A stretch of DNA of 64,000 nucleotides from Desulfobacter postgatei 2ac9 (GTDB lineage: Bacteria > Desulfobacterota > Desulfobacteria > Desulfobacterales > Desulfobacteraceae), in assembly GCF_000233695.2 (NCBI RefSeq), contig NZ_CM001488.1:3583601-3647600 (forward strand). Reading direction: 5' to 3'. Positions 28,765-41,996 of the stretch are shown here, in pieces. The position numbers and the translations under genes were made by a program. How positions within the stretch are numbered: position 1 is the first letter of the stretch; every line of letters begins with the position of its first letter. The notes beneath the pieces were generated by a model. It was not told the origin of the DNA and ran no database searches. It worked only from the letters and a program-made list of their open reading frames with translations.

Positions 28765-30206
28765 TCGGTAAACTTGGGCTGTTCCGTAAAAGGATTTTCA
28801 TAAAGCGCTGTCAGCAGGTGTACCTGACTGAAATCATCTCTGGCTTCAGCATCCTCAATCGCCTTGTGAATCCGGTGATTTCTGGGAATGAAAAGGGGAT
28901 TGATCCGGTTCATTTTTGCCTGAATGACGTCAGGACGATTTTCTTCAGCCAGCCGCTTCCGCCATGATTCAAGCCAGGCAGAAATAGCATCCGGTGCTTT
29001 GAAAAGTTTTTGAAATTGCGGCGTCATGGTTGATCCTTCCCTGATTTGATCTGCCAGATAGCGAAACGTCAGGGTAAAATCGGTTTTTTGACTCTGCATG
29101 AGAGCAAGCAGTTCCCCAAGAAGGGAAAAATCCTGGTCACCTGGTTTTTCTATTCCGATTTTTTTGAGCAAACCAACCTTTTGGGCGTGAAGAAATTCTT
29201 GTTCAAACGCAGTTAAGGTGGCATCAATCACATCCATTGCCTCTTCCTCTGTGTTACCTAAAAGCGCTTGTAAAGAAATGCCAAGAGCGTGCAGATTCCA
29301 CTTCATAATGGCGCCCTGGTTGGCATAACGGTATCTTCCCATGGTATCAATGGAACTGAAGACCATGTTCGGGTCATAATAATCCATAAAGGCACAAGGC
29401 CCATAATCAATGGTCTCTCCTGAAATTGAGGTGTTGTCCGTATTCATGACCCCGTGAATAAATCCAAGCTGCATCCATTTGGCCACAAGCCTGGCCTGCC
29501 TTGTGGCAACCGATGAAAAAAATTGCCTGTATCGGTCTTTTGTTTCCAAAATTTCAGGGTAATGGCGGGCAATCACGTAATCGGCAAGCTCGCCAATTGC
29601 CGCTTCATCTCCCCGGGCGGCAAAATACTCGAAACTGCCCACCCGGACAAAACCCGATGCGACCCTGGTCATAACGCCGCCCGGATGTATCCCATCCTCG
29701 CGCAGGATTCGTTCTCCTGTGGAGACGATTGCAAGGGCCCTGGTGGTGGGCACCCCTAACGCGTGCATGGCCTCACTGACAATGTACTCACGGATTACAG
29801 GCCCCAGAGGCGACTTGCCGTCTCCGCCCCGGGAAAACCGTGTTCTGCCGGAACCTTTGAGTTGAACATCAACGCGTTTACCGTCCGGGGTGATCTTTTC
29901 TCCGAGCAGAATGGCCCGGCCATCGCCAAGCTGGGGCACAAATCTGCCAAACTGATGCCCGGCATATGCCATGGCAACAGGTGTGGAATCTGCAAAAACA
30001 AGATTTCCTGCCAGACAATCTGTCAGTTCCGGCGTCTCTTGAGTAAAATTAAACCCCAGTTCACGGCCCAGTTTCCAGTTGTATTTTTGCAACACAGGGT
30101 CGTGTACGGTTTCGGGCGTAATGGGTTCATAAAATTTTTTCGGAAGCATTGCAAAACTGTTTTTAAATCCCGCGTTAAGGGTTGACACTGAAGGTGCTTT
30201 TTCCAT
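28707..30206 (-). CDS. selO: SelO/YdiU pseudokinase-fold protein adenylyltransferase
   Basis: A 499-residue protein of the SelO family, which transfers AMP from ATP to hydroxyl side chains of proteins. Recognisable segments are AGHQFGRFVPQLGDGRA, the ribose/ATP-binding KGSGRTRFSRGGDGK, the HGVMNTDNTS catalytic loop and the metal-binding DYGPCAFMD. The C-terminus is FCGT, with the conserved near-terminal cysteine that is selenocysteine in many eukaryotic versions. The ATG at 30206 follows AAGGAGCG; a longer frame to 30317 lacks support. It is convergent with kbl, sharing 58 bp. Confidence 0.93.
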   Translation of the reverse strand: MEKAPSVSTLNAGFKNSFAMLPKKFYEPITPETVHDPVLQKYNWKLGRELGFNFTQETPELTDCLAGNLVFADSTPVAMAYAGHQFGRFVPQLGDGRAILLGEKITPDGKRVDVQLKGSGRTRFSRGGDGKSPLGPVIREYIVSEAMHALGVPTTRALAIVSTGERILREDGIHPGGVMTRVASGFVRVGSFEYFAARGDEAAIGELADYVIARHYPEILETKDRYRQFFSSVATRQARLVAKWMQLGFIHGVMNTDNTSISGETIDYGPCAFMDYYDPNMVFSSIDTMGRYRYANQGAIMKWNLHALGISLQALLGNTEEEAMDVIDATLTAFEQEFLHAQKVGLLKKIGIEKPGDQDFSLLGELLALMQSQKTDFTLTFRYLADQIREGSTMTPQFQKLFKAPDAISAWLESWRKRLAEENRPDVIQAKMNRINPLFIPRNHRIHKAIEDAEARDDFSQVHLLTALYENPFTEQPKFTDYAQAPADEKRVTRTFCGT

Positions 30207-30339
30207 GTATGCGCTCCTTGTTTGGCTTTCATGAAATATTTCATTGTTAATAAAAATAATGCATGAATATGGAGAAGTCATCATTCGTGTCCGTTTCTTT
30301 ATGCAGCTTTTGCTCAATTAACATTGGGTTGCAGTATGA

Positions 30340-30528
30340 GGAAACCTATGCCTATACCCTGCCGGGATTATAGCAGACCTGGGCTGTCCGGCGCTGGTGA
30401 TCTCCAATGGATATGAAAAGGATGCCGAACAGGTGATAACCTCGTGTCAGCTCGCTGTGGAAAGTCTATATTTAAGAAAAAAGCATTATGAATATTGCCG
30501 GACTGCAGCGCATGTGATATTTCCCTGA
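30340..30528 (+). pseudogene. Possible C-terminal remnant of an unidentified gene
   Basis: An open frame of 62 codons without a convincing start has protein-like composition ([31 protein letters not shown]) and ends at TGA 30526. It lies between selO and the YchJ-type gene and could be the tail of a decayed gene. The family is not recognised, and chance is possible. Confidence 0.25.
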
Positions 30529-30566
30529 GATTCAAACTAACTGATTTCCATGGAGGAAATGTAAAT

Positions 30567-31049
30567 ATGGAAGAATGTCCCTGCGGAAGCAACCTTGCTT
30601 ATGCCGAATGCTGCGAACCCGTCATTACCGGAACAGAGCCTGCCCGGACTGCACAACAACTGATGCGCGCCCGTTATAGCGCCTATACAAAGGTTGATAC
30701 GGATTTTATTTTTAACACCACCCATCCGGATCACCGGGAGGGGTACGATCATGCCAGCACAAAATCATGGGCGCAAAATTCGGAATGGCTGGGCCTTGAA
30801 ATTGTTGCAACAGAAGCCGGCTGTTCCGAAGACCAGGAAGGCACGGTTGAATTCATAGCCACTTACCGGACAAACGGCACTGTTCAAAATCATCATGAGC
30901 TTGGCCGATTTTCAAAACAGGACAATGCATGGTTTTTCACCACCGGTGAGATGGTGAAACCAAAACCTGCTGTTTCCACCAAGGTGGGCCGGAATGCACC
31001 CTGTCCCTGCGGCAGTGGGCGCAAGTACAAGAAATGCTGCGGTAAATAA
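30567..31049 (+). CDS. YchJ-family SEC-C motif protein
   Basis: A 160-residue protein with an N-terminal zinc-binding motif ([13 protein letters not shown]), the family segment [13 protein letters not shown], a compact NTF2-like middle and a C-terminal SEC-C motif ([13 protein letters not shown]). This is the UPF0225/YchJ layout. The function is not established; SEC-C motifs bind zinc and often mediate protein contacts. The ATG at 30567 follows GGAGGAAATGT; the longer frame from 30495 is rejected. Confidence 0.88.
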
Positions 31050-31128
31050 AAGACATTTTTAAAGATACAAGTTCCGTAATCTGACATGGGCCCGGACCCG
31101 ATTTCCTGGAATCCGGGCTGATGTCGTT

Positions 31129-31476
31129 TTAGAACGTAATGATCTTGTATCCTTTTTCGATGAACGCGCCCATGGAAGGATGGTTGGCCATATCCCCAAC
31201 CAGGGGAATGCCTTCCTTTTCAATGGGAGCAAGGGCGTCAAGTTTGGTTGCACAGGCCTTGCAAGCGCCGTAGATAAGGCCGGCCTCTTTGGCTTTTTTG
31301 TAAAGGGGGTTTAAAAAATGCCCGGATTCCGACATGGGCCCGACAAGTTTGACAGATTCTCCCTCCAGAACAATAAGTCCTTCCTGGCCCCGCCGTTTTA
31401 GGTCAAGGGCATTGAGAAGTACGTGAACAAAGCATAAAGGGTCTCCCCGGAATGCAAATAATACGGTTTTTTCCAT
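31129..31476 (-). CDS. DsrE-like small sulfurtransferase-family protein
   Basis: A 115-residue soluble protein starting MEKTVLFAFRGDPLCFVHVLLNALDL, with the alpha/beta pattern of the DsrE/F superfamily and a central YGACKACATKLDA segment containing two cysteines that could carry persulfide sulfur. Many sulfate reducers encode such orphan DsrE proteins; the partner is unknown. An AGGAGG site precedes the ATG. It is separated from the GGDEF gene upstream and is probably transcribed alone. Confidence 0.75.
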   Translation of the reverse strand: MEKTVLFAFRGDPLCFVHVLLNALDLKRRGQEGLIVLEGESVKLVGPMSESGHFLNPLYKKAKEAGLIYGACKACATKLDALAPIEKEGIPLVGDMANHPSMGAFIEKGYKIITF

Positions 31477-31542
31477 GATAAACCTCCTGATTTTGAATTT
31501 TTGGGAAAGTGGATTGACAATATATGACGGCCCGAAAAAGCG

Positions 31543-32052
31543 CTATCGATCCCTGAAAATACTGGTATTCCGGCCGCTCTCCTTGGCCTGGCAAAGGGTT
31601 ATGTCCGCCTCTTGTAACAGGCTGCCCAGGGAATTGAATTCAGGATATTTACGTCCAATTCCAATGGAAATTGTACAGGACACAGCACTGCCGTCCTTCA
31701 GGGGAATCCGGGTTTCGGCAACGGTTTTCAGGATATCCGAAACAATATCCATAGACACTTCGTGGGTCTGTGCCGTGTACATGACGGAAAAATCTTTACC
31801 GCCCATGCGCCCGAATATTGCATCCGGTGGCAAGACATCTTTGATGACATTTGCCACTGTTTTTAAAACGATGTCGCCCACATCATGGCCATACTGATCA
31901 TTGATCTTTTTAAGATAGTCAATATCAATCATCAGGACATATAATTCACTGCCTGACGCATTGAACAGGGGCTCTCCAAGTTCAAAAAATCTCTTTCGGG
32001 TCAACACACGGGTTAAAACGTCCCGGGTGGCCATCATATCAAGTTGATTCAT
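31543..32052 (-). CDS. GGDEF-domain protein with degenerate active site
   Basis: A protein of about 170 residues made almost entirely of a GGDEF domain: TRDVLTRVLTRKRFFE, MIDIDYLKKINDQYGHDVGD and the signature region GRMGGKDFSV. The canonical GG(D/E)EF reads GGKDF; the third position, an acid needed for metal and catalysis in active diguanylate cyclases, is Lys. Cyclase activity is therefore doubtful, and c-di-GMP or GTP binding, or dimerisation, may remain. The ATG at 32052 gives a bare domain. A GTG at 32172 would overlap the preceding gene by 50 bp and lacks a ribosome-binding site. It is last in the ABC/receiver cluster. Confidence 0.8.
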   Translation of the reverse strand: MNQLDMMATRDVLTRVLTRKRFFELGEPLFNASGSELYVLMIDIDYLKKINDQYGHDVGDIVLKTVANVIKDVLPPDAIFGRMGGKDFSVMYTAQTHEVSMDIVSDILKTVAETRIPLKDGSAVSCTISIGIGRKYPEFNSLGSLLQEADITLCQAKESGRNTSIFRDR

Positions 32053-32122
32053 ACATTCTTTCGCAAGGTGCCTGATGAGAGCACTTTTTTTTCGGAAAAA
32101 GTATCCATGGTTTTTTCCGCTA

Positions 32123-32815
32123 TCACTCTTTTTTCTTTTCCCAGAAGTTACGGTTTTCCTGCAGAATGTCACTTATATCGTCATCAACTACATTCTCATC
32201 GTTTTCCTTGTCTTCCAGATTAATATCTGTAAATGCATCAATGTTTAAATCTTCTATATCATCCTCATCATCCTCTTCGGATAAATCAATCAGTTCATCA
32301 GCATCATCTGAGTCAAGGATGTTGAGGTTCTCCTGATCAAATCCAGGTTCATCTTCAAGGTCTTCAATTTCCAGTTTGGGATCAGCCCCCTGCATCTCAT
32401 CAGACAGCTCTTCGGGTTCGGTATCCTCTGCCTTTACTTGGCCGGGCTCATCATCCGGGGCATCATCATCATCGGGAAAGTGAATAGACAGATTGTCATC
32501 CAGATCTGATACCGGGGCAGCATTTTCATCATTTTCATCCTGAGTGTCTTGTTTAGACGCCGTACTTTCACTATCTTCAATCAGGTTTCCGTTCCGGTCA
32601 AAAAGCAGGCTGCCGTTAATATTAATTTTATAATCAAGCCTGAACGCCACATGATTGTTATGTACCACAATCTGGCCGCCTTTGGGGGACAGCGCCTTTG
32701 CGGTCAGACGCTCCTTGAGCAGATCCCTGACTGCATCAAGATCCAGATCTTTTTGGACAGATGCAATGAGGTCTTTTTCTCCGTTCAGTATGACTTGGGG
32801 ATCTGTAATTCTCAT
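32123..32815 (-). CDS. Highly acidic protein of unknown function
   Basis: A 230-residue protein. The first about 85 residues form a compact domain (ITDPQVILNGEKDLIASV, GGQIVVHNNHVAFRLDYKI). The rest, from about residue 85, is a low-complexity tail dominated by Asp and Glu (PDDDDAPDDEP, SEEDDEDDIEDLN), expected to be disordered. It starts 10 bp after the receiver-SBP gene and overlaps the possible start of the GGDEF gene, so co-transcription is likely. No family was recognised. The tail could be a binding platform or cation-interacting linker (inference). Confidence 0.7.
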   Translation of the reverse strand: MRITDPQVILNGEKDLIASVQKDLDLDAVRDLLKERLTAKALSPKGGQIVVHNNHVAFRLDYKININGSLLFDRNGNLIEDSESTASKQDTQDENDENAAPVSDLDDNLSIHFPDDDDAPDDEPGQVKAEDTEPEELSDEMQGADPKLEIEDLEDEPGFDQENLNILDSDDADELIDLSEEDDEDDIEDLNIDAFTDINLEDKENDENVVDDDISDILQENRNFWEKKKE

Positions 32816-32825
32816 ACATAACTCC

Positions 32826-34202
32826 TTAATTTATATTAAATGCGATGTTGGCAAAACTGGGGTCAATAAAGTTTTCAAGGTCAATAATTTTGCCGATCTC
32901 CATGACATCGTGCATGTATCTTTGAATTTTATCTAAATCTGATGCTTCCGGATAGAGTCCGTCCCAACAGATGGCCATGGGCTGGGAAAATACATTTTGA
33001 AGCACCTGAGAACTCAACCCCATTTTACCTTCGGGGTCCAGGAATTTTACGGCAATGTTCGCCGCCCGGGCCTTATCGTTTTCAATAAACTCGCCGGTAT
33101 CGACCAGCAGAGAGACAAACTCCTGAACAGCTTCAGGATGTTTCTGGATAAAGTCCTTTTGCATGGCCACAATGCAGCAGGGATGATTCTCCCAGCGTGT
33201 GGCTGAATAAAATTCCAGGTTGCCGATTCCCCCCTTGATGGCTTTGGTGGCAACCGGTTCGGCAACCATAAATCCCCCCACATCTTCGTTTTCTTTCATA
33301 ATGCCGGGCATCTTAATGGGTGGAACCACCTCAAAGCGCACATTAATCGCTTTTTTCCCCGGAACACCGGGTTTGAGCCCCAGTTCCTTCAAAAATTGAT
33401 GTGCAAGCATGTGGTGAACCGACATTTTGTGAGGAATATCCACAACCTTGTATTTGTAAAAGCTTTGCAAAGAGTCAAACCTGTAATCATAATGCCGGGA
33501 GCGCACAAATGTGGAACCGTTCTTGTGGGCAAACAGGACCAGCTGAATAGGGGAGTCATAGGCAAACAGGTCCATGGCAATGGGTGCCAGAACAAAGGCG
33601 CAGTCAATTTCCCCGCTTTCAAGGCCTTCCTGTATCGGGTTCCATCCACCCATCAGGCTGGTGGACAGATCAAAGTGCTGGGGGGTCACATCCCCTTGGT
33701 TAATGCGGTGTTTCAGGGCGCCCAGAGCAAGGTGGTCGGTAATCTGAATGTGGGCGACATTGAGTTCAACGCGCCCTCCAATAATGCTTCGCTTTTTTGT
33801 TATCCGCTGTTTTTTCATCCCTCCGGAGAAAGCCCTTTCAATCGCCTTTGTTATTTCCTGTTCATTAAACGGCTTTGGGCAATGGGCATTCCCACCGGCT
33901 TCCAGGATGGCTTTCTGCTGGCCCATGTCGGCCTGGGCCGTGGCCATGATAAAAGGCAGATCCTTAAATGCTTCAGAGGCTCTTAATTCTTTGAGAAATC
34001 CAAGGCCATCGAGCGTGGGCATGTTCCAGTCGGAGATGACAAGATCAGGTTTTTCAACTTTTACTTTTTCAAGGCCGTCTACACCGTTCACCGCCATAAC
34101 AAGATTTGAAAATCCGGCTTTAGCCAGGATTTGTTTGAACATTATCCGCATAGTGCCTGAATCATCTGCCACAACAATTTTGATATTCGGGTCTACCGCC
34201 AT
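32826..34202 (-). CDS. CheY-like receiver fused to a NitT/TauT-type substrate-binding domain
   Basis: A 458-residue protein without signal peptide. Residues 7-130 are a complete receiver domain: acidic pocket Asp13/Asp14 in VVADDSG, phosphoacceptor Asp58 in ISDWNMP, Thr88 and Lys110 in PKPF, all very CheY-like. Residues about 140-445 resemble the periplasmic binding proteins of nitrate/taurine-type ABC importers (VDIPHKMSVHHML, MVAEPVATKA, WENHPCCIVA). It sits 58 bp downstream of the permease gene of such an importer. The binding domain must be cytoplasmic here, so it may sense an imported ligand or dock onto the transporter, gated by phosphorylation. No histidine kinase is nearby. Confidence 0.85.
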   Translation of the reverse strand: MAVDPNIKIVVADDSGTMRIMFKQILAKAGFSNLVMAVNGVDGLEKVKVEKPDLVISDWNMPTLDGLGFLKELRASEAFKDLPFIMATAQADMGQQKAILEAGGNAHCPKPFNEQEITKAIERAFSGGMKKQRITKKRSIIGGRVELNVAHIQITDHLALGALKHRINQGDVTPQHFDLSTSLMGGWNPIQEGLESGEIDCAFVLAPIAMDLFAYDSPIQLVLFAHKNGSTFVRSRHYDYRFDSLQSFYKYKVVDIPHKMSVHHMLAHQFLKELGLKPGVPGKKAINVRFEVVPPIKMPGIMKENEDVGGFMVAEPVATKAIKGGIGNLEFYSATRWENHPCCIVAMQKDFIQKHPEAVQEFVSLLVDTGEFIENDKARAANIAVKFLDPEGKMGLSSQVLQNVFSQPMAICWDGLYPEASDLDKIQRYMHDVMEIGKIIDLENFIDPSFANIAFNIN

Positions 34203-34260
34203 AAAATACTCCTTATGTCCTGAAAAGGTATAGTATATAAAAAATTAAAAATTTTATCTC

Positions 34261-35097
34261 TTAAACATCGTCGGTCCATGACCAGCTGAACCTGTGCTGC
34301 AATTTCTGGAAAACTTTGTCGAGTATAAATCCCAGCATGCCGATGGCAATGATTACGGCCATAAGTTTGTCATATTCCATGGTATCCCTGGCATCGTTAA
34401 TCAGATAGCCGAGACCCGATGATACCCCTAAAAATTCTGCCGGGACCAAAACAATCCATGCAATCCCCAGCGCCAGTCTGATGCTGGTCATCATATGTGG
34501 GATGGAATATGGAATAACAATCGTTTGAATGAGTTGAACGTTATTGGCACCCTGGTTCAAAGCCATTTTTATCCACTGGGGGTTAATATCCATGACACCA
34601 ATGGCTGTATTGAGTATTATAGGACAAATTGTCGCCATTACAATCAAAAAATGAACTGCGGATTCAAAGCTGGTAAATAAAAGCAATGCAATGGGCATCC
34701 ATGACAGGGGGCTGATCATTCTTACGAATTGAATCGGCGAATAGGTCAGCTTGCGAAGACGAGTGAAAAAACCGATCAGTATGCCCAATGGGAGTCCGAT
34801 GACTGCTGATATGGCTATCCCTACAACGATTCTACGCAGGCTTGCAAAAACCGACATCCAAAATCTGGAATTCTGAAAAGCGTCTGCCATGGCCGTTAGA
34901 GTCGGGCCGGGTAGAAAACCTTTAAAATGGGACAGTCCAGGCCTGGTGAAGATAACCTGTGTGATAACGGCCCAGGCACAGGCAAACAGGACAAGTCCGG
35001 CAAGTTCATATTTCCAGCCCGACCATACCCGGGTGAAAAATGATGATAAGCCGACCTGGACGGCTCTATCCTGGAAATTTTTTTCAATTGATTTCAA
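34261..35097 (-). CDS. ABC transporter permease, NitT/TauT type
   Basis: A 278-residue membrane protein with about six helices and the BPD_transp_1 signature in the EAA loop region (ALNQGANNVQLIQTIVIPYSIPHMMTSIRLALGIAWIVLV). It forms the channel of the importer encoded by the neighbouring ATPase and TAT-exported binding protein genes. Its start overlaps the binding-protein gene by 14 bp. The family imports nitrate, sulfonates, taurine, thiamine precursors and similar small ligands; the substrate here is not evident. Confidence 0.9.
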   Translation of the reverse strand: MKSIEKNFQDRAVQVGLSSFFTRVWSGWKYELAGLVLFACAWAVITQVIFTRPGLSHFKGFLPGPTLTAMADAFQNSRFWMSVFASLRRIVVGIAISAVIGLPLGILIGFFTRLRKLTYSPIQFVRMISPLSWMPIALLLFTSFESAVHFLIVMATICPIILNTAIGVMDINPQWIKMALNQGANNVQLIQTIVIPYSIPHMMTSIRLALGIAWIVLVPAEFLGVSSGLGYLINDARDTMEYDKLMAVIIAIGMLGFILDKVFQKLQHRFSWSWTDDV

Positions 35098-36286
35098 CGG
35101 TTTCTTCCCTGGAAAAGAGATCTTCTGTGTCGCGATGGCTGAACGCTTTCACTCCCCCCATGTCGTCAAGGGCTTTTCTGACAAAACGGTCGTCCACAAG
35201 CTGTGCAACGGCTCTATTTACATCAAGGGTTGTCAGAAAATCCGTGTTGCCTTCAACCTTGGTTTTTTTCATCTGTTCCAGAATAAATCGGGTGGCTGAT
35301 GGAAAAGGAAAGGGCTGGAAACCGATTCTTTCTACATTCCACTGGGGGTGTATCAGTTCTTTTTCGGGGATGGCACCAAAAACCCTGTGAAGAATTGATT
35401 CTTTTACCGGCAAAAATCCTTCGCCGTCCCTGCTGAGCAGATGAGCCGTTTCCTCTGGGTTTTGCAGGCACCACGCCTGGGCTCTTACAATGGCATTTAC
35501 CGCCTTTTGAATTACTATGGGGCTTTCTTGGATCAGGTGGTCATTGGCGACGACAACACAACAGGGATGATTTTTCCAGATATCTCCGGAATATCGCATA
35601 ATTTTTGCCGAAAATTTTTCCTGAGCCAGCGCGTTGAAGGGGTCCGCCACGATAAATGCGTCTATCTTATTTCCCAAAAGCGCCTGGGGCATATCCGGGG
35701 GGGGCAGAATAAAAAGATTCACCTCGTGGGGGGCAAGCTTTGAGCCCGGCGGTCGGATCACAGCTTCAAGCCCCTGGACCTGAAGTCCTAACTGCATGAC
35801 CAGATTGTGCATGGAGTACCATGAGGGCACGGCCACCTGTTTGCCGGCCAGATCCGCAAACCGGTTGATGCCGGCGTCTGTTTTAACAGTGACCGCACTG
35901 CCATTGGTGTGATTCCAGGCCAGAACCTTGACGGGTACGTTCTGCTTGAATCGCATCCATACGGGGATGGGAAAAAGCATGTGGGCCAAATCAAACTTAC
36001 CCGTTAAAAAGGATTCGGAAAGTACTTTCCATGACCGCACCATGACCGGCGGTTCCACATGAAGTCCTTCGTGGGAAAAATAACCCAGAGTGTATGCAAC
36101 GAGTAAAGGGGTGGCATCTGTAATGGGCAGATAACCTATTTTTAACGGTCTTTTTTTTGCCGCTGCCGAGCAAGGAAATACCATGGGGGCACAGGCGGCT
36201 ATGCCTGCTGTCCCTATTGCTGTTTTTAAAAAACTTCGCCGTGAAATACTGTTGGGGCATACCGGCTTTACATGGTTAAATTCCAT
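35084..36286 (-). CDS. TAT-exported ABC substrate-binding protein, NitT/TauT type
   Basis: A 400-residue protein with a twin-arginine signal (SISRRSFLKTAIGTAGIAA) and an NMT1/SsuA-like binding domain from about residue 48 (LKIGYLPITDATPLLVAYTLGYF). Motifs shared with the two cytosolic relatives in this cluster are VPSWYSMHNL, VADPFNALA and WKNHPCCVV. Export folded through Tat is common for NrtA/CmpA-type proteins. It overlaps the ATPase gene by 11 bp and the permease by 14 bp, so the three are one operon. The ligand is unknown. Confidence 0.9.
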   Translation of the reverse strand: MEFNHVKPVCPNSISRRSFLKTAIGTAGIAACAPMVFPCSAAAKKRPLKIGYLPITDATPLLVAYTLGYFSHEGLHVEPPVMVRSWKVLSESFLTGKFDLAHMLFPIPVWMRFKQNVPVKVLAWNHTNGSAVTVKTDAGINRFADLAGKQVAVPSWYSMHNLVMQLGLQVQGLEAVIRPPGSKLAPHEVNLFILPPPDMPQALLGNKIDAFIVADPFNALAQEKFSAKIMRYSGDIWKNHPCCVVVANDHLIQESPIVIQKAVNAIVRAQAWCLQNPEETAHLLSRDGEGFLPVKESILHRVFGAIPEKELIHPQWNVERIGFQPFPFPSATRFILEQMKKTKVEGNTDFLTTLDVNRAVAQLVDDRFVRKALDDMGGVKAFSHRDTEDLFSREETVEIN

Positions 36287-37052
36287 TCGTCAGGCTCCGT
36301 TTAACTAAATATGCGATTTTAAATCGTTCAAGAATATCGGTTCTCAACGCTTTGATCACAGGATCATGCTGTTTTCTGGGGTAGGGTACATTGATATCGA
36401 AAATATCGGAAATCCCGGCAGGGGAACCAGCCAGAACAACAATTTTATTGCCAAGGCGTATGGCTTCATCAATATCATGGGTGACAAAGACCGCGGTAAA
36501 GCTTTCGGACATCCACAGGTTTACCAGTTCTTCCTGGATATGGGCCTGGGTAAAGGTATCTAACGAGGCAAAGGGCTCGTCAAGCAGCAGGACCTGGGGA
36601 CGTCCCACCAGCGCCCTGGCCAGGCAGACCCGCTGAGCCATACCTAAAGAGAGCTGGCTGGGTTTTGCATCAGCCGAACCTGTCAGCCCCATGATTTCGA
36701 GAAACTGGCTTACCCGGTATTCCAGATACTGGGTCTCTTTCCTGATTTTACAACCATAGGCCACATTCTCCTTAACGCTGAGCCATGGGATCAGGGCCGG
36801 TTGCTGGAACAGCATGGAACGTGAGGGATGGATGCCGACAATAGGGTTGCCGTTCACCCGAATTTGACCGCAGGTCGGATTTTCAAGCCCAGCCAGCATG
36901 TTCAGCAGGGTGGTCTTTCCACAACCCGATTCACCCAGAATAATCACAAAATCCCCAGGATTTATGGAAAAGGAAATATCCTTGAGAATCTGATGTTTTT
37001 TTTTCCCCGGCCCGTCGTAGGATTTACAGATTTTTTCAATATCTATTTTCAA
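36276..37052 (-). CDS. ABC transporter ATP-binding protein, NitT/TauT type
   Basis: A 258-residue ATPase with Walker A GESGCGKTT, Q-loop region FQQPALIPW, an ABC signature reading LSLGMAQRV (consensus LSGGQ is relaxed), Walker B LLLDEPFASLD and the switch histidine VTHDIDEA. It powers the importer formed with the adjacent permease. The 3-bp gap from the upstream gene and 11-bp overlap with the downstream gene indicate coupled translation. Confidence 0.93.
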   Translation of the reverse strand: MKIDIEKICKSYDGPGKKKHQILKDISFSINPGDFVIILGESGCGKTTLLNMLAGLENPTCGQIRVNGNPIVGIHPSRSMLFQQPALIPWLSVKENVAYGCKIRKETQYLEYRVSQFLEIMGLTGSADAKPSQLSLGMAQRVCLARALVGRPQVLLLDEPFASLDTFTQAHIQEELVNLWMSESFTAVFVTHDIDEAIRLGNKIVVLAGSPAGISDIFDINVPYPRKQHDPVIKALRTDILERFKIAYLVKRSLTNGI

Positions 37053-37055
37053 GTA

Positions 37056-38015
37056 CTATAATTCCGATAGAACAGTATCAATAAATTCGGGCCTGACAAA
37101 TCCATTGAGGTCGGCTTCGATCGGCATGACCTTCATGGTTGTACGCATATAATCAAGCACGATGTTCAAAATTTGCATATCCGGAGCCAGAAGTTTTGGG
37201 CAATAGGTAATCCCGGAGGTGTTAAGTGTCCTTCGTATCTGCTCGCCAGAAAGGCCTAAAAAAGAGGCGGAGATGCGTTCAATGGTGTTTTCGGCGGTGT
37301 CCGGGGATGATGACATATACCGGTCAAGTTCCCGGGCGCTATAAAGGAGACAGCTGACCATCAGGGCCAAATCCTCCCCTTTGGTCACAAGCAGATCCTG
37401 GTGTACCACGAATACACTACCCGGATGATCCTTCCACAAATCCCGGGAAAGGAGCAGATGTTTGAATCCTTTTTTTTCAACCTCCGCGTCACCAAAGGGG
37501 GCAGGGCAGATAAAAGCTGCAATATCGCCGTCAAGATCCGAACTGGCCATTTCCGGCATCAAGGCAAACGGTACTGATTCAATTCTGACGCTTTCTCCTA
37601 ATTTTCCCGAACCGGCGATTTTTAAATTTCCTGCACTCAGCAGTCTGTGCAAAAGCAGATGTTGAATACTGAGCCTGTGCGGAATCAAAACGCTTTTACC
37701 TTTAAGATCCGCCAATCTTTGAATTTGGTTGGCCATAATGACTCTGCTGCCTGCCCTGTGAGTGAACATGAGCATGGATATTGCCGAACCCTTGTTAAAC
37801 AGATACATGGCCTGGGCAATATCCATAAAAGCGGCATGAATATCCCCGGATGCAAATCCCCTCTCCACCTGTTCCCAGGAACGCATGGTAAAAGGTATAA
37901 TATCCGAATCGGCACCAGACCCTTTACGCTGGATGTAACGGGGTAAAGCAAGTCCTAATATCAGATGATCAATACTAATAAAATGTCCGATTCGGATAGT
38001 CAGGGGCAGCCTCAA
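37056..38015 (-). CDS. Substrate-binding-protein homologue without signal peptide
   Basis: A 319-residue protein beginning MRLPLTIRIGHFISIDHLIL, with an NMT1/SsuA-like fold. It carries the same landmarks as its two relatives (IPHRLSIQHLLLHRLL, ICPAPFGDAE, WKDHPGSVF) but has no Sec, Tat or lipoprotein signal, so it is predicted to stay in the cytoplasm. It is the first gene of the ABC cluster and ends 3 bp before the ATPase. The function may be ligand sensing or regulation of the importer rather than periplasmic capture (inference). Confidence 0.75.
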   Translation of the reverse strand: MRLPLTIRIGHFISIDHLILGLALPRYIQRKGSGADSDIIPFTMRSWEQVERGFASGDIHAAFMDIAQAMYLFNKGSAISMLMFTHRAGSRVIMANQIQRLADLKGKSVLIPHRLSIQHLLLHRLLSAGNLKIAGSGKLGESVRIESVPFALMPEMASSDLDGDIAAFICPAPFGDAEVEKKGFKHLLLSRDLWKDHPGSVFVVHQDLLVTKGEDLALMVSCLLYSARELDRYMSSSPDTAENTIERISASFLGLSGEQIRRTLNTSGITYCPKLLAPDMQILNIVLDYMRTTMKVMPIEADLNGFVRPEFIDTVLSEL

Positions 38016-38117
38016 ATCTTTTAGACTTATTGATTTTGGATTTTATTGAGAAAAACTTTAACACAGCCCGGAATGCGTTGGCAAGTTTGTAGACGCAATT
38101 TATTTCATCTGCGGTAC

Positions 38118-39797
38118 TTAAAGTCGCCCGCTGCGAATAATGGCCACCAATAGCCAGACACCAAGGAGAGCAGCAGCAATGAATCCGGCAATGCCGATGA
38201 TGGAGACGCCGAGAATCATGGGCGGGATCCGGGAGTTGAGTACAATGGCCGAGCCCAGGATCAGGGCGGCAATGATAATGGCAAAAGAGATCCGATTGGA
38301 TGTCTGATCCTGGGTCATCATCAGCCGCTCCAGACCATCAAGGCTTACCGTGATCTTTATTTTTCCCTTTTTGATCTGGGTCATGATGCTGCTTGTATCC
38401 CCGGGCAGGGTCTGAAGCAGGGAAAAGAGATCCCTGGCGATGCCTAAAAACTCCCGGGAGAGCCGGGGTAATGAATATTTTCTTAGGGTTGCGGACTTGA
38501 TATAGGGCCGGGCATGGTTAAGGAGATCAAATTGAGGGTCTAGTGTGCGTGCCACCCCCTCAATACTGATAAATGCCTTCATCATTAAAAACAGGTCCGG
38601 AGGGATTCTCAACCCGTGCCGGGTGCAAAGCTCAAGAAACTGGTGAATCATGCGGCTGGGATTGATTTCTTCAAGCTTTCTGGACAAATATACCGCGCAA
38701 AATTGTGCGATATCCTTTTCCAGGGCCGCCATATTGACCGATGGGTCGGGCTCGGTCAGACGGCAAAGCAGACGGGCTGTATTCCTGGTATTTTTTGAGG
38801 CAAGCGCCTGGAGCAGATCAATGAATAACTCCCGGGTAGTTGAATCCACAAATCCCGTCATGCCAAAATCAATCATGCAGATGCGCTGGTCTTCCAGAAT
38901 AAAAATATTGCCCGGATGGGGATCGGCATGGAAGAAACCAAACTCAAATATCTGACGCATGACAAAATCGGCGCCAATGCGGGTGATTTTTTTTCTGTCA
39001 AGAGCTGCCCGGTCAATGGCTTCAACGTCATCGGCCTTGATCCCCAGGATATATTCCATACACAGCACCCGTTGTGTGGAATGGGACCAGTAGACTTCGG
39101 GAATGCGGATGTCCGGTTCTCTGGCGAACTGGTCAGCCATCTGTTCCATATTGGCCGCCTCCACCATGTAATCGAGCTCTTTTTCCAGGGATTGGGCAAA
39201 TTCTTCAACAATTTTCACGGGTCGGAATATGGCCATATCTTCCAGGTTTTTTTCCATGACCTGGGCCAGATAGTGGATGATTTCCAGATCAACCTCGATT
39301 GTTTTACGGATGCCGGGGCGCTGAATTTTTACCGCCACCTGCTCCTTTGACGACAGTTCCGCCCGGTGAACCTGTCCGATGGAGGCCGAAGCAAAAGGAG
39401 CCTCCTCAAAGGAATAGAATACCTCACTGATGGGTCTGCCAAACTCTGAAAGAATAATTTGTCCGACCTGTTCAAACGAAAATGACGGCACCTTGTCCTG
39501 GAGTTTGGCAAGCTCCCGGGTCAAGTCCAGGGGGATCAGATCCGGCCGTGAGGATAATACCTGGCCCATTTTAATGAAGGTGGGCCCAAGCTCCTCCAAA
39601 ACCATCCTGATCCGCTGATTCCTGGACAGTTTCTCATGGGGTTTTGAGAACGGAATTTTATCAAGATAATGATCAATCCCCATGGCATCAATAATATTTT
39701 CAAATCCGTACTTGAAAATAATGCCGATAATCTGTTGGTAACGAACCAGATGCCGGTATCGTTTCGTGACCCTGGAAATGGTCTTAAAACTGAGCAT
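38118..39797 (-). CDS. AarF/UbiB-family atypical kinase
   Basis: A 559-residue protein of the ABC1/UbiB family. It shows the KxGQ motif (FIKMGQVLSSRPDLIP), AVKIQRPG (ATP-binding Lys), HADPHPGNIF (catalytic loop) and MIDFGMTG (DFG-like), plus two C-terminal hydrophobic helices that anchor it in the membrane. UbiB proteins support quinone biosynthesis or lipid handling through ATPase activity. It lies directly after a phasin-like gene and an acyl-CoA dehydrogenase on the same strand and is probably co-transcribed with them. Confidence 0.9.
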   Translation of the reverse strand: MLSFKTISRVTKRYRHLVRYQQIIGIIFKYGFENIIDAMGIDHYLDKIPFSKPHEKLSRNQRIRMVLEELGPTFIKMGQVLSSRPDLIPLDLTRELAKLQDKVPSFSFEQVGQIILSEFGRPISEVFYSFEEAPFASASIGQVHRAELSSKEQVAVKIQRPGIRKTIEVDLEIIHYLAQVMEKNLEDMAIFRPVKIVEEFAQSLEKELDYMVEAANMEQMADQFAREPDIRIPEVYWSHSTQRVLCMEYILGIKADDVEAIDRAALDRKKITRIGADFVMRQIFEFGFFHADPHPGNIFILEDQRICMIDFGMTGFVDSTTRELFIDLLQALASKNTRNTARLLCRLTEPDPSVNMAALEKDIAQFCAVYLSRKLEEINPSRMIHQFLELCTRHGLRIPPDLFLMMKAFISIEGVARTLDPQFDLLNHARPYIKSATLRKYSLPRLSREFLGIARDLFSLLQTLPGDTSSIMTQIKKGKIKITVSLDGLERLMMTQDQTSNRISFAIIIAALILGSAIVLNSRIPPMILGVSIIGIAGFIAAALLGVWLLVAIIRSGRL

Positions 39798-39820
39798 GGT
39801 CAGGGCAAGATGCCTGGATT

Positions 39821-40123
39821 TCAGGCCTCTTTTTCAATTTTTTTAGACAGCTCGTCAATCCGGGCATTGAGTTCATCAATATCCCCACGGGTGGGCAGAT
39901 CCAGGCGTTTAAGTACCGATTCCACAACTGCTTCAACTTTTTTATCAAGGCTGGATTTTGCTTCGTCGTACCGTTTTTTACACTCTTCCAGAAAGTCCTT
40001 TGCCTCTTTCTGGTTCATTTCAGACTGTTCTGCGAACTCCTTGGCAAAGGTTTCAATTTCTTTTTTGGAGCGCAGCGCCATACCCACCCCGGTGAGCAGA
40101 CTGTTTTTTAAGGTTTCAAGCAT
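39821..40123 (-). CDS. Phasin-like/PHA-granule-associated small protein
   Basis: A 100-residue, highly charged helical protein (MLETLKNSLLTGVGMALRSKKEI, then EECKKRYDEAKSSLDKKVEAVVESV and a C-terminal heptad-like stretch ARIDELSKKIEKEA). This is the pattern of the phasin/COG3937 group that coats polyhydroxyalkanoate granules or forms coiled-coil accessory proteins. The ATG at 40123 has GGGAGGAAAAG upstream; the longer frame to 40225 overlaps the acyl-CoA dehydrogenase and is rejected. It sits between the acyl-CoA dehydrogenase and the AarF kinase. Confidence 0.75.
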   Translation of the reverse strand: MLETLKNSLLTGVGMALRSKKEIETFAKEFAEQSEMNQKEAKDFLEECKKRYDEAKSSLDKKVEAVVESVLKRLDLPTRGDIDELNARIDELSKKIEKEA

Positions 40124-40148
40124 GTTCTTTTCCTCCCTTTTATTTTTA

Positions 40149-41996
40149 CTATTTTGAGCCAAAGGAGACGTCCAATATATCCTCCACAGAGCTATCCCCT
40201 TCAAGAATGGCATCCATCTTACCATAAGATCCGGGCAAAAGGGTATTGATAAAAAATCTGGCAGAGGCCATCACGCCGGCATAAAATGCTGCCTCTTTGT
40301 TTTTCCCAACCTTGGCAGCCACAGCTTCAGGGTCAAGAGAGCCTACTTTTTCAGCCAATTTAGGTGCGGCAACACAGGCTCGCCACAGATGCATCCAGGC
40401 AAAGACGATATCCCCTGTAATCTCCAGGAAGGGGTGAGCAAAGGCATAAGCGTTAAGCACCTTTTCAGACCTTGCCCTTGCACCGATCTCATAGGCAACA
40501 ACATCATACCGGTCCAGAGCAAGTTCGACCTTTTCGAAAAGTACTTCAAGTCCTTCAATTTTTTGGGCTTCAATTATGGTTTTTCTGATCTGATCCAGGA
40601 AGTATACAAAACTTTGCCCATTGTTCATGGAGAGCTTGCGACCGAGAAGATCCATGGCCTGGATCCCGTTGGTGCCTTCGTAAATCATGAAGATTCTGGA
40701 ATCACGCATGAGCTGCTCTGCCGGAAATTCCTTGCAGTATCCATATCCGCCGTAAACCTGGACGCCGTGGGAGCAGACCTCAAGGGCCTTATCCGTGATA
40801 TAGCCTTTGACAATTGGGGTGAGTACCTCAATTAAAGCGGCGGTATTGGCCTTTAATGCCTCATCATCCGTGGTATGAACAATGTCCTCGCATTTGGCAT
40901 AGTAATAGTGCAGGGACCGCATGCCTTCGGTGTATACTTTCATATTCAGCAGCTGGCGTTTAACATCCGGGTGATTAATAATGGTTACGTTTTTGGCTGT
41001 GGCATCCTTGCCCGCTGTAAGATGTCGGCCCTGTACCCGGGTTCTGGCATAATCAAGGGCGTTCATATAAGCGGCGGACGCCACGGCAAAACCCTGGACA
41101 CCCACAAATGCCCGGGATTCGTTCATCATTTGAAACATTGCGGACATGCCCTTGTTTTCTTCGCCGAGAAGGGTGCCGATGCAAGGTCCTTTGTCTCCCA
41201 AAGCCAGGGTGCAGGTAGCATTACCGTGAATGCCCATCTTTTCTTCAAGGCCCGTGCATACCACATTGTTGAATTCACCCAGGGAGCCGTCTTCATTAAC
41301 CAGGTATTTGGGCACCAGAAACAGGGAGATTCCCCGGGTGCCCGCAGGTGCGCCCTCAATACGCGCAAGGACCGGATGGATAATATTATCGCAAAGATCG
41401 TGTTCACCCGCAGAGATGAAAATTTTTGTACCCTGGATGGTGTAGGTGCCGTCATCGTTCAAGGTGGCTGCGGTGGTCAACGCGCCCACGTCGGAACCGG
41501 CCTCGGGTTCCGTCAGGAGCATGGTGCCGCCCCACTGGCCTGCAAACATTTTTTTCATGTACAGTTTTTTCTGGGTTTCATTACCAAAGGCTTCCACCAG
41601 CTTGGATGCGCCGTGGGTCATGCCGTAATAGAGCATAAAGGCGGAGTTGGCGCCTACCATATATTCCAAAGCTGCGCACCCCACGGTTTTGGGCATGCCC
41701 TGGCCGCCCACCTCCGGATCATCACACATGGCCAGCCATTCACCTTCGCAGAAGAGCTTCCAGGCCCGTTTGAAAGATTGGGGCGTGGTCACTTTACCGT
41801 TTTCAAGGGTGCAGCCGATCTCATCTCCGTCTTTAAATGTGGGCAGAATCTCCTTAATGGCAAGCTTCCTTGCTTCCGAGACAATCAGGTTAACGGTCTT
41901 TTTATTGAATTGCTCAAATAACTCATGGTCAACCGTTCCGATTTGTTCATGCAATACAAAGTCGACATCGCGCCTGTCTGCAATTGGCTGTGCCAT
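40149..41996 (-). CDS. Acyl-CoA dehydrogenase (long, about 600-residue type)
   Basis: A 615-residue flavoprotein. It has the AcdA-type N-terminal extension, LTEPEAGSDVGAL (FAD and substrate binding), IHGNATCTLALGDKG, and YGGYGYCKEFPAEQLMRD followed by YEGTNGIQAMDLLGRK. A C-terminal extension ends GKMDAILEGDSSVEDILDVSF. This is the long acyl-CoA dehydrogenase subgroup that includes DmdC-like enzymes. It oxidises an acyl-CoA to the 2-enoyl-CoA and passes electrons to ETF. The chain-length preference is not visible. It leads a minus-strand unit with the phasin-like and AarF genes, and a near-palindrome in its leader may bind a regulator. Confidence 0.92.
   Translation of the reverse strand: MAQPIADRRDVDFVLHEQIGTVDHELFEQFNKKTVNLIVSEARKLAIKEILPTFKDGDEIGCTLENGKVTTPQSFKRAWKLFCEGEWLAMCDDPEVGGQGMPKTVGCAALEYMVGANSAFMLYYGMTHGASKLVEAFGNETQKKLYMKKMFAGQWGGTMLLTEPEAGSDVGALTTAATLNDDGTYTIQGTKIFISAGEHDLCDNIIHPVLARIEGAPAGTRGISLFLVPKYLVNEDGSLGEFNNVVCTGLEEKMGIHGNATCTLALGDKGPCIGTLLGEENKGMSAMFQMMNESRAFVGVQGFAVASAAYMNALDYARTRVQGRHLTAGKDATAKNVTIINHPDVKRQLLNMKVYTEGMRSLHYYYAKCEDIVHTTDDEALKANTAALIEVLTPIVKGYITDKALEVCSHGVQVYGGYGYCKEFPAEQLMRDSRIFMIYEGTNGIQAMDLLGRKLSMNNGQSFVYFLDQIRKTIIEAQKIEGLEVLFEKVELALDRYDVVAYEIGARARSEKVLNAYAFAHPFLEITGDIVFAWMHLWRACVAAPKLAEKVGSLDPEAVAAKVGKNKEAAFYAGVMASARFFINTLLPGSYGKMDAILEGDSSVEDILDVSFGSK

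Follow-up and report, generated by a model that had tools for sequence, protein, structure and literature searches.

A receiver domain fused to a predicted cytosolic substrate-binding domain in an importer operon of Desulfobacter postgatei, with relatives pointing to a probable chemosensory role

The window analysed here, a whole stretch of 64,000 nt from the genome of Desulfobacter postgatei 2ac9, carries on its minus strand an operon for an ABC importer of the NMT1/TauT type. Alongside the ATPase, the permease and an exported substrate-binding protein (SBP), the operon encodes a protein in which a receiver domain (REC) is joined to an SBP domain (REC-SBP), as the first-pass annotation had recognized. 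The genes and features are:

37056..38015, minus strand: second SBP-type protein, signal-less (PF13379, 3.5e-18)
36276..37052, minus strand: ABC importer ATPase (PF00005, 5.3e-35)
35084..36286, minus strand: exported SBP with the twin-arginine signal SRRSFLK (TAT-SBP), the importer's own binder (PF13379, 6.4e-45)
34261..35097, minus strand: ABC importer permease (PF00528, 2.2e-18)
32826..34202, minus strand: REC-SBP fusion protein, 458 aa
33837..34178, minus strand: CheY-like receiver domain of REC-SBP, aa 9-122
34029-34031, minus strand: codon of D58, the candidate phospho-acceptor of REC-SBP
32829..33782, minus strand: predicted cytosolic SBP domain of REC-SBP, about aa 141-458
33174-33185, minus strand: HPCC motif of the SBP domain, aa 340-343
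32123..32815, minus strand: d230, with a conserved small N-terminal domain, an acidic disordered tether and a C-terminal helix with an FW motif
31543..32172, minus strand: GGDEF protein (PF00990, 2.1e-32), overlapping the end of d230

From 38015 down to 32123, the operon order is signal-less SBP, ATPase, TAT-SBP, permease, REC-SBP and d230, followed by the GGDEF gene, and the operon genes overlap or are spaced by about 60 bp at most; membership of the GGDEF gene in this unit is uncertain. Over 172 aa, the GGDEF protein shares 76% identity with the GGDEF portion of a REC-GGDEF protein at a related locus (L067). It lacks the receiver domain of that relative and has the motif GGKDF instead of GGEEF, and may therefore be a diguanylate cyclase that is decayed or no longer active. 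The signal of the TAT-SBP scores 18.2 bits with TIGR01409 (NCBIfam), above the 16.7 cut-off, and 17.9 bits with the Pfam TAT_signal model, under its 22.7 cut-off. The NCBIfam matches of the permease to SaoP and NtrB are both under their cut-offs, and no export signal was seen in the second SBP-type protein, because its SBP fold begins at the N terminus in the alignment.

The single 458-aa frame of REC-SBP matches PF00072 with 81.3 bits (cut-off 30.2), with an intact Asp/Asp/Thr/Lys site, and PF13379 (NMT1_2) above the Pfam cut-off, with an SBP fold predicted; both the fusion and the nature of its C-terminal half are thereby confirmed. Within E <= 1, the domain search returned REC and NMT1_2 only, and no ANTAR, DNA-binding or CheW domain. 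An assembly artefact joining two genes is contradicted by the occurrence of the fusion in one frame in 80 of 80 named loci (the best 80 of 211 relatives) and by the grouping of the sampled receiver-linked SBPs on a single branch. REC-SBP has no lipobox and, with the receiver domain occupying its N terminus, no export signal, and so does not qualify as a periplasmic binder; the importer ATPase is a separate ORF (36276-37052), not joined to the SBP domain. The idea that the usual periplasmic binder has here become cytosolic holds for the predicted location of the SBP domain but not for the importer, which keeps its own TAT-exported SBP, and REC-SBP is therefore something other than the importer's binder.

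Constraint on the protein was read from an alignment of the window's REC-SBP with 86 of 87 references (L087 was left out; L046 and 26 loci taken as near-duplicates were excluded beforehand), and the most distant of these 87 proteins share 39% overall identity with the window's REC-SBP. In the receiver, D14, D58 and K110 are invariant, T88 is present in 86/87 and position 13 is D or E in all, which leaves intact the phospho-acceptor set described on first pass. In the SBP domain, 16 polar or aromatic positions, chosen from 42 columns that never vary along the protein, have one and the same residue in 87/87: H151, T155, D156, H157, W187, N188, D211, H226, S230, H258, S261, E315, W337, H340, C342 and C343. 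The TAT-SBP keeps T155, D156, W187, H226, S230, S261, W337, H340, C342 and C343 and differs, by alignment, at H151, H157, N188, D211, H258 and E315. Among solved structures, those of NrtC and CmpC rank with the nearest to the SBP domain, by sequence and by fold. The cysteine pair aligns with the KK position of NrtC, where a lysine presumably takes part in nitrate coordination; its replacement argues that nitrate is unlikely as the ligand. Aligned to NrtC and to 3un6, as opposed to placed by coordinates, the invariant SBP residues would line the cleft. The latter structure, a Staphylococcus aureus SBP 'with Zinc bound', is free-standing, unlike REC-SBP, and its zinc may be a crystallisation effect.

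An SBP match at E <= 1e-10 is present in 60 of 98 relative genomes, and the receiver-linked form, as read from the table of SBP matches, in 52 of the 98. A scan of genome contigs retrieved 211 relatives, of which the best 80 are mostly titled Desulfobacterota or Deltaproteobacteria and also include Spirochaetes, Latescibacterota, Melioribacteraceae and Gammaproteobacteria (among the last, Rhabdochromatium marinum). In a phylum sample, 23 of 395 genomes match at E <= 1e-50: D. postgatei itself, 19 with a whole REC-SBP-CheW protein, one with an incomplete SBP-CheW (G174) and two with lone SBPs only (G273 and G474).

Across the loci, 197 distinct SBP-bearing proteins comprise 87 REC-SBP (a class in which L042, L064, L087 and L113 are longer, with C termini that bear no label), 40 REC-SBP-CheW, 60 lone SBPs, 3 REC-SBP-HATPase-STAS, 2 REC-SBP-SpoIIE, L046, L065 (a REC-SBP-CheW whose SBP label is split) and 3 SBP-CheW ending at locus edges. 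Labels for loci are phmmer matches to our own domain references, not Pfam; Pfam was run on the proteins that supplied the che, CheW, SpoIIE, HATPase and STAS references. It was also applied to 18 REC-SBP proteins of greater length or atypical make-up, in sets of 10 and 8. The first set yielded CheW in five of ten (L034, L035, L036, the second L038 protein and L039), SpoIIE above its cut-off in L037 and L040 and under it in L042, and HATPase with STAS in L041; the second yielded CheW in five of eight (L043, L044, L046, L047 and L065) and HATPase with STAS in L048 and L049. Nothing beyond REC-SBP was recognized by Pfam in the first L038 protein or in L045. The HATPase-STAS and SpoIIE fusions suggest partner-switch signalling as another output. 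L046 (5790-9407) is a tandem REC-SBP-REC-SBP-CheW protein of 1205 aa.

A quick, unrooted maximum-likelihood tree of 99 of the 181 usable SBP rows (picked by k-mer thinning) has all 59 sampled receiver-linked SBPs on the same side of a branch supported at 100% by SH-aLRT; support is weak for many of its inner branches (42 of 96 open). A group of 66 with 98% support joins the receiver-linked SBPs to lone SBPs of the L002 type, and 20 un-extended proteins including the window's REC-SBP form a 99% group, with three Spirochaetes records; four further un-extended rows fall outside that group of 20. This topology fits one fusion event, followed by changes of C-terminal domains. L002 itself (1477-2424; D. 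postgatei genome 3454294-3455205) is a lone signal-less SBP whose neighbours resemble HPr and ispD by eye, and its relatives sit immediately upstream of REC-SBP in other families.

Several loci connect the module to chemosensory (che) genes. REC-SBP lies inside che clusters in three genomes: at L052, with CheD, HDOD, REC, CheX, CheB, CheR and CheD (Pfam); at L053 (= L111), with CheA, a second CheA-like protein, REC and CheX, the last at its cut-off (Pfam); and at L055 (= L110), where the cluster was called by phmmer labels. By the same labels, REC-SBP-CheW neighbours CheA and CheR in L142, and CheR, CheB and CheA in L196, and two genomes of one genus (L197 and L198) show the order REC-SBP-CheW, CheX, lone SBP (CheX of L197 by Pfam). 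A divergent CheD adjoins the importer operon in 22 of the 31 loci for which five or more genes upstream are available (the L075 copy matches at 9.2e-22 in Pfam); by phmmer labels it is absent beside the operon in the other nine, including all four titled Desulfobacter (L068, L069, L071 and L072). The D. postgatei genome has nine CheW and four CheD matches, none within the 64,000-nt window, and no che or importer genes were labelled by phmmer near several un-extended relatives (among them L116, L119, L120, L121, L125, L128, L134, L143 and L147).

At the level of whole genomes, CheW is present in 52/52 REC-SBP genomes versus 34/46 others among the 98 relatives, a comparison that ignores relatedness and in which the genomes without REC-SBP are often smaller or less complete, and REC-SBP is found in 0 of the 12 CheW-less genomes. 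Within two genera, six REC-SBP genomes have 9-16 CheW matches versus 0-9 in the eight without. Genome size and common descent may account for part of this co-occurrence. The per-genome lists of REC-SBP, CheW and TAT-SBP were compiled by hand from the search tables.

Among the 98 relatives, TAT-SBP is present in 51, REC-SBP in 52 and both in 50, so that TAT-SBP accompanies 50/52 REC-SBP genomes versus 1/46 others; in the sole genome with TAT-SBP only (G040), the operon meets a contig end after the permease. Outside the family, TAT-SBP occurs in 5 of 39 genomes, all among the 7 with REC-SBP (Fisher, 3.6e-5). Of the 67 loci with no CheW label, 41 have REC-SBP immediately after the permease. In G071, G055, G082 and G096, the importer and the receiver-linked genes were found on different contigs, both retained. 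The CheW-fused form heads the operon in L039 (G080), in the order REC-SBP-CheW, ATPase, TAT-SBP, permease, and in L038 (G076) it is followed by an importer-type ATPase at the contig end. At the phylum level, TAT-SBP at E <= 1e-40 was found in none of 20 genomes with the CheW form (19 whole, G174 incomplete), which argues against a general importer link. The only TAT-SBP matches among the 39 genomes of that test are in G273 and G474, whose match is a 327-aa frame also found as a lone SBP in the SBP search.

Wherever the permease lies directly upstream of REC-SBP, d230 lies directly downstream (41/41 loci). The protein has no Pfam match over the cut-off and no NCBIfam or PDB match. Its model has a mean pLDDT of 62.5, with the blocks of residues 1-80 at 69-91 and the last two blocks at 75-80; the acidic tether is variable, and the C-terminal FW motif is conserved. 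The motif resembles FliM/CheZ docking peptides. We propose, weakly, that the motif of the C-terminal helix is a docking peptide and, as a guess from the arrangement of small domain, tether and helix, that d230 might be a tethered docking protein. In the copies at L114 and L127 the FW motif is present twice.

We consider it reasonably probable that REC-SBP serves a CheA-type (chemosensory) network as a signalling protein in the cytosol and reports an internal ligand, because CheW, SpoIIE or HATPase-STAS lie behind the SBP domain in relatives, other relatives reside in che clusters and REC-SBP genomes always have CheW among the 98 compared. The first-pass annotation, partly supported overall, had left the choice between output and sensor domain open; these fusions and clusters favour an input module of the chemosensory type. 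In such a system, the NrtA/NrtC-like domain would bind a small molecule in the cytoplasm, and its ligand state would bias either the phosphorylation of the receiver, presumably by CheA, or the contacts of the receiver, a direction of coupling that we infer. Ligand state and CheY-like phosphorylation would then be read jointly, and the chemosensory pathway would thus be told the cytoplasmic amount of the molecule. CheW, where present, would pass the signal to CheA, and the CheW-fused relatives could be direct members of the CheA/CheW array; the window's form, having no CheW, would be expected to act through its receiver (as a phospho-sink or a CheY-like output) and partners such as d230. In Desulfobacteraceae-type genomes, the sensed molecule is most likely the substrate of the neighbouring importer. 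Against this reading stand the lack of CheW in the window's own protein, the location of all CheW and CheD matches of the genome outside the window, the nine loci with no CheD label beside the operon, the CheW-form genomes of the phylum sample without TAT-SBP, the un-extended relatives with neither che nor importer labels nearby, and the SpoIIE and HATPase-STAS forms, which point also to partner-switch outputs.

Three other explanations can be envisioned. REC-SBP could regulate the transporter, with the receiver adding phospho-control, as the kinship of its SBP domain to the NrtC/CmpC regulatory domains, its frequent position after the permease and the near-complete co-occurrence with TAT-SBP among the 98 relatives would suggest; we hold this to be unlikely, as the module occurs without this importer in 20/20 phylum-level genomes tested and its relatives are in che clusters or fused to CheW. 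SBP folds can be recruited as scaffolds, and the SBP domain, for which no ligand is known, could likewise be a scaffold for protein interactions that binds no ligand, carried on a CheY/CheV-like protein. The identity of the 16 polar or aromatic SBP positions, judged to line the cleft by alignment only, makes this distinctly unlikely. Finally, ligand binding by the SBP could release or change the receiver and thereby control expression of the operon via a partner, in the manner of NasS, an NrtA-type sensor of the cytosol with a REC protein as its target (PMC3795266). L002-type lone SBPs do lie immediately upstream of REC-SBP in 11 of the 67 loci without a CheW label (L114, L115, L118, L122, L123, L124, L126, L127, L129, L130 and L131), but the absence of ANTAR and DNA-binding domains from REC-SBP and, as weak evidence, the lack of any Rfam match above the gathering score in 30000-41000 render such a mechanism very unlikely.

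A bolder form of the chemosensory reading, which we put forward tentatively as possible but short of probable, is that REC-SBP and REC-SBP-CheW are undescribed soluble intracellular chemoreceptors. A cytoplasmic binder of the ABC-importer type would feed the level of an imported ligand, possibly a metal or a thiol-reactive compound, into CheA/CheW with no membrane receptor, and CheD, CheX and d230 would be partners in adaptation or termination. The usual view is that bacteria steer by receptors that face outward and that their binding proteins work outside the cell. If this proposal is true, a widespread binder of transporter type that sits in the cytoplasm and carries a receiver, and in many relatives CheW, would couple the level of a nutrient inside the cell directly to behaviour, and 'metabolism-dependent taxis' could be tested on a single purified protein.

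CheV, which we take to be a CheW-REC adaptor with CheW preceding REC, resembles the CheW-fused relatives in joining a receiver to CheW, but these relatives reverse the order and place the SBP between; the window's REC-SBP is not a CheV, since CheW is found only in its relatives and in the opposite order. CheWS of Treponema denticola, a soluble CheW protein that belongs to the chemotaxis array, carries a fused sensor for intracellular SAM (PMC10653840). REC-SBP-CheW would resemble it as a soluble array-type protein with its own sensor for a small molecule inside the cell, but the CheWS sensor is a CheR-like SAM binder, not an SBP, and the text consulted mentions no receiver. The authors of that paper counted 30 unstudied CheW architectures, and its Fig. 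S10 may list REC-SBP-CheW among them.

Cytosolic NrtA-type domains are likewise known elsewhere. NasS, an NrtA-type SBP without a signal sequence, holds the REC-ANTAR protein NasT (PMC3795266), and NrtC and CmpC have an SBP-type C-terminal regulatory domain on the ATPase (PMC6603209 and PMC11349869). Like NasS-NasT of Paracoccus and others, REC-SBP pairs a cytosolic NrtA-type SBP with a CheY-like receiver, but NasS and NasT are described there as two proteins, the latter with an ANTAR RNA-binding domain, whereas here REC is fused to the SBP and ANTAR is absent. REC-SBP is thus neither a NasS, being fused to REC and having CC at the NrtC KK position, nor a NasT, having no ANTAR alongside REC. 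It also departs from NrtC/CmpC in that its SBP is joined to a receiver instead of an ATPase and the module often occurs without the importer. The first-pass remark that no characterised example of this architecture was known agrees with the open-licence literature, in which no characterised REC-SBP fusion or CheW form was found; cytosolic SBP sensors as such are already characterised in NasS and NrtC/CmpC. In the REC-SBP module and its CheW form, a cytosolic SBP sensor is combined with a multi-domain chemosensory protein, both kinds already known, and REC-SBP would offer a third signalling context for cytosolic binding domains of the NasS/NrtC type. The module is real and conserved, and its significance exceeds what a single operon suggests.

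The neighbourhoods of the relatives show a few further associations. REC-SBP-CheW genes adjoin an HDOD gene in L138, L139, L141, L144, L145 and L146 (phmmer labels; Pfam for L145), and an Hsp90 gene follows in L138 and L145 (Pfam). At a locus titled Gammaproteobacteria (L133, 7593-10311), REC-SBP is followed by a REC-GGDEF gene, and a CheW-labelled gene lies about 3 kb upstream.
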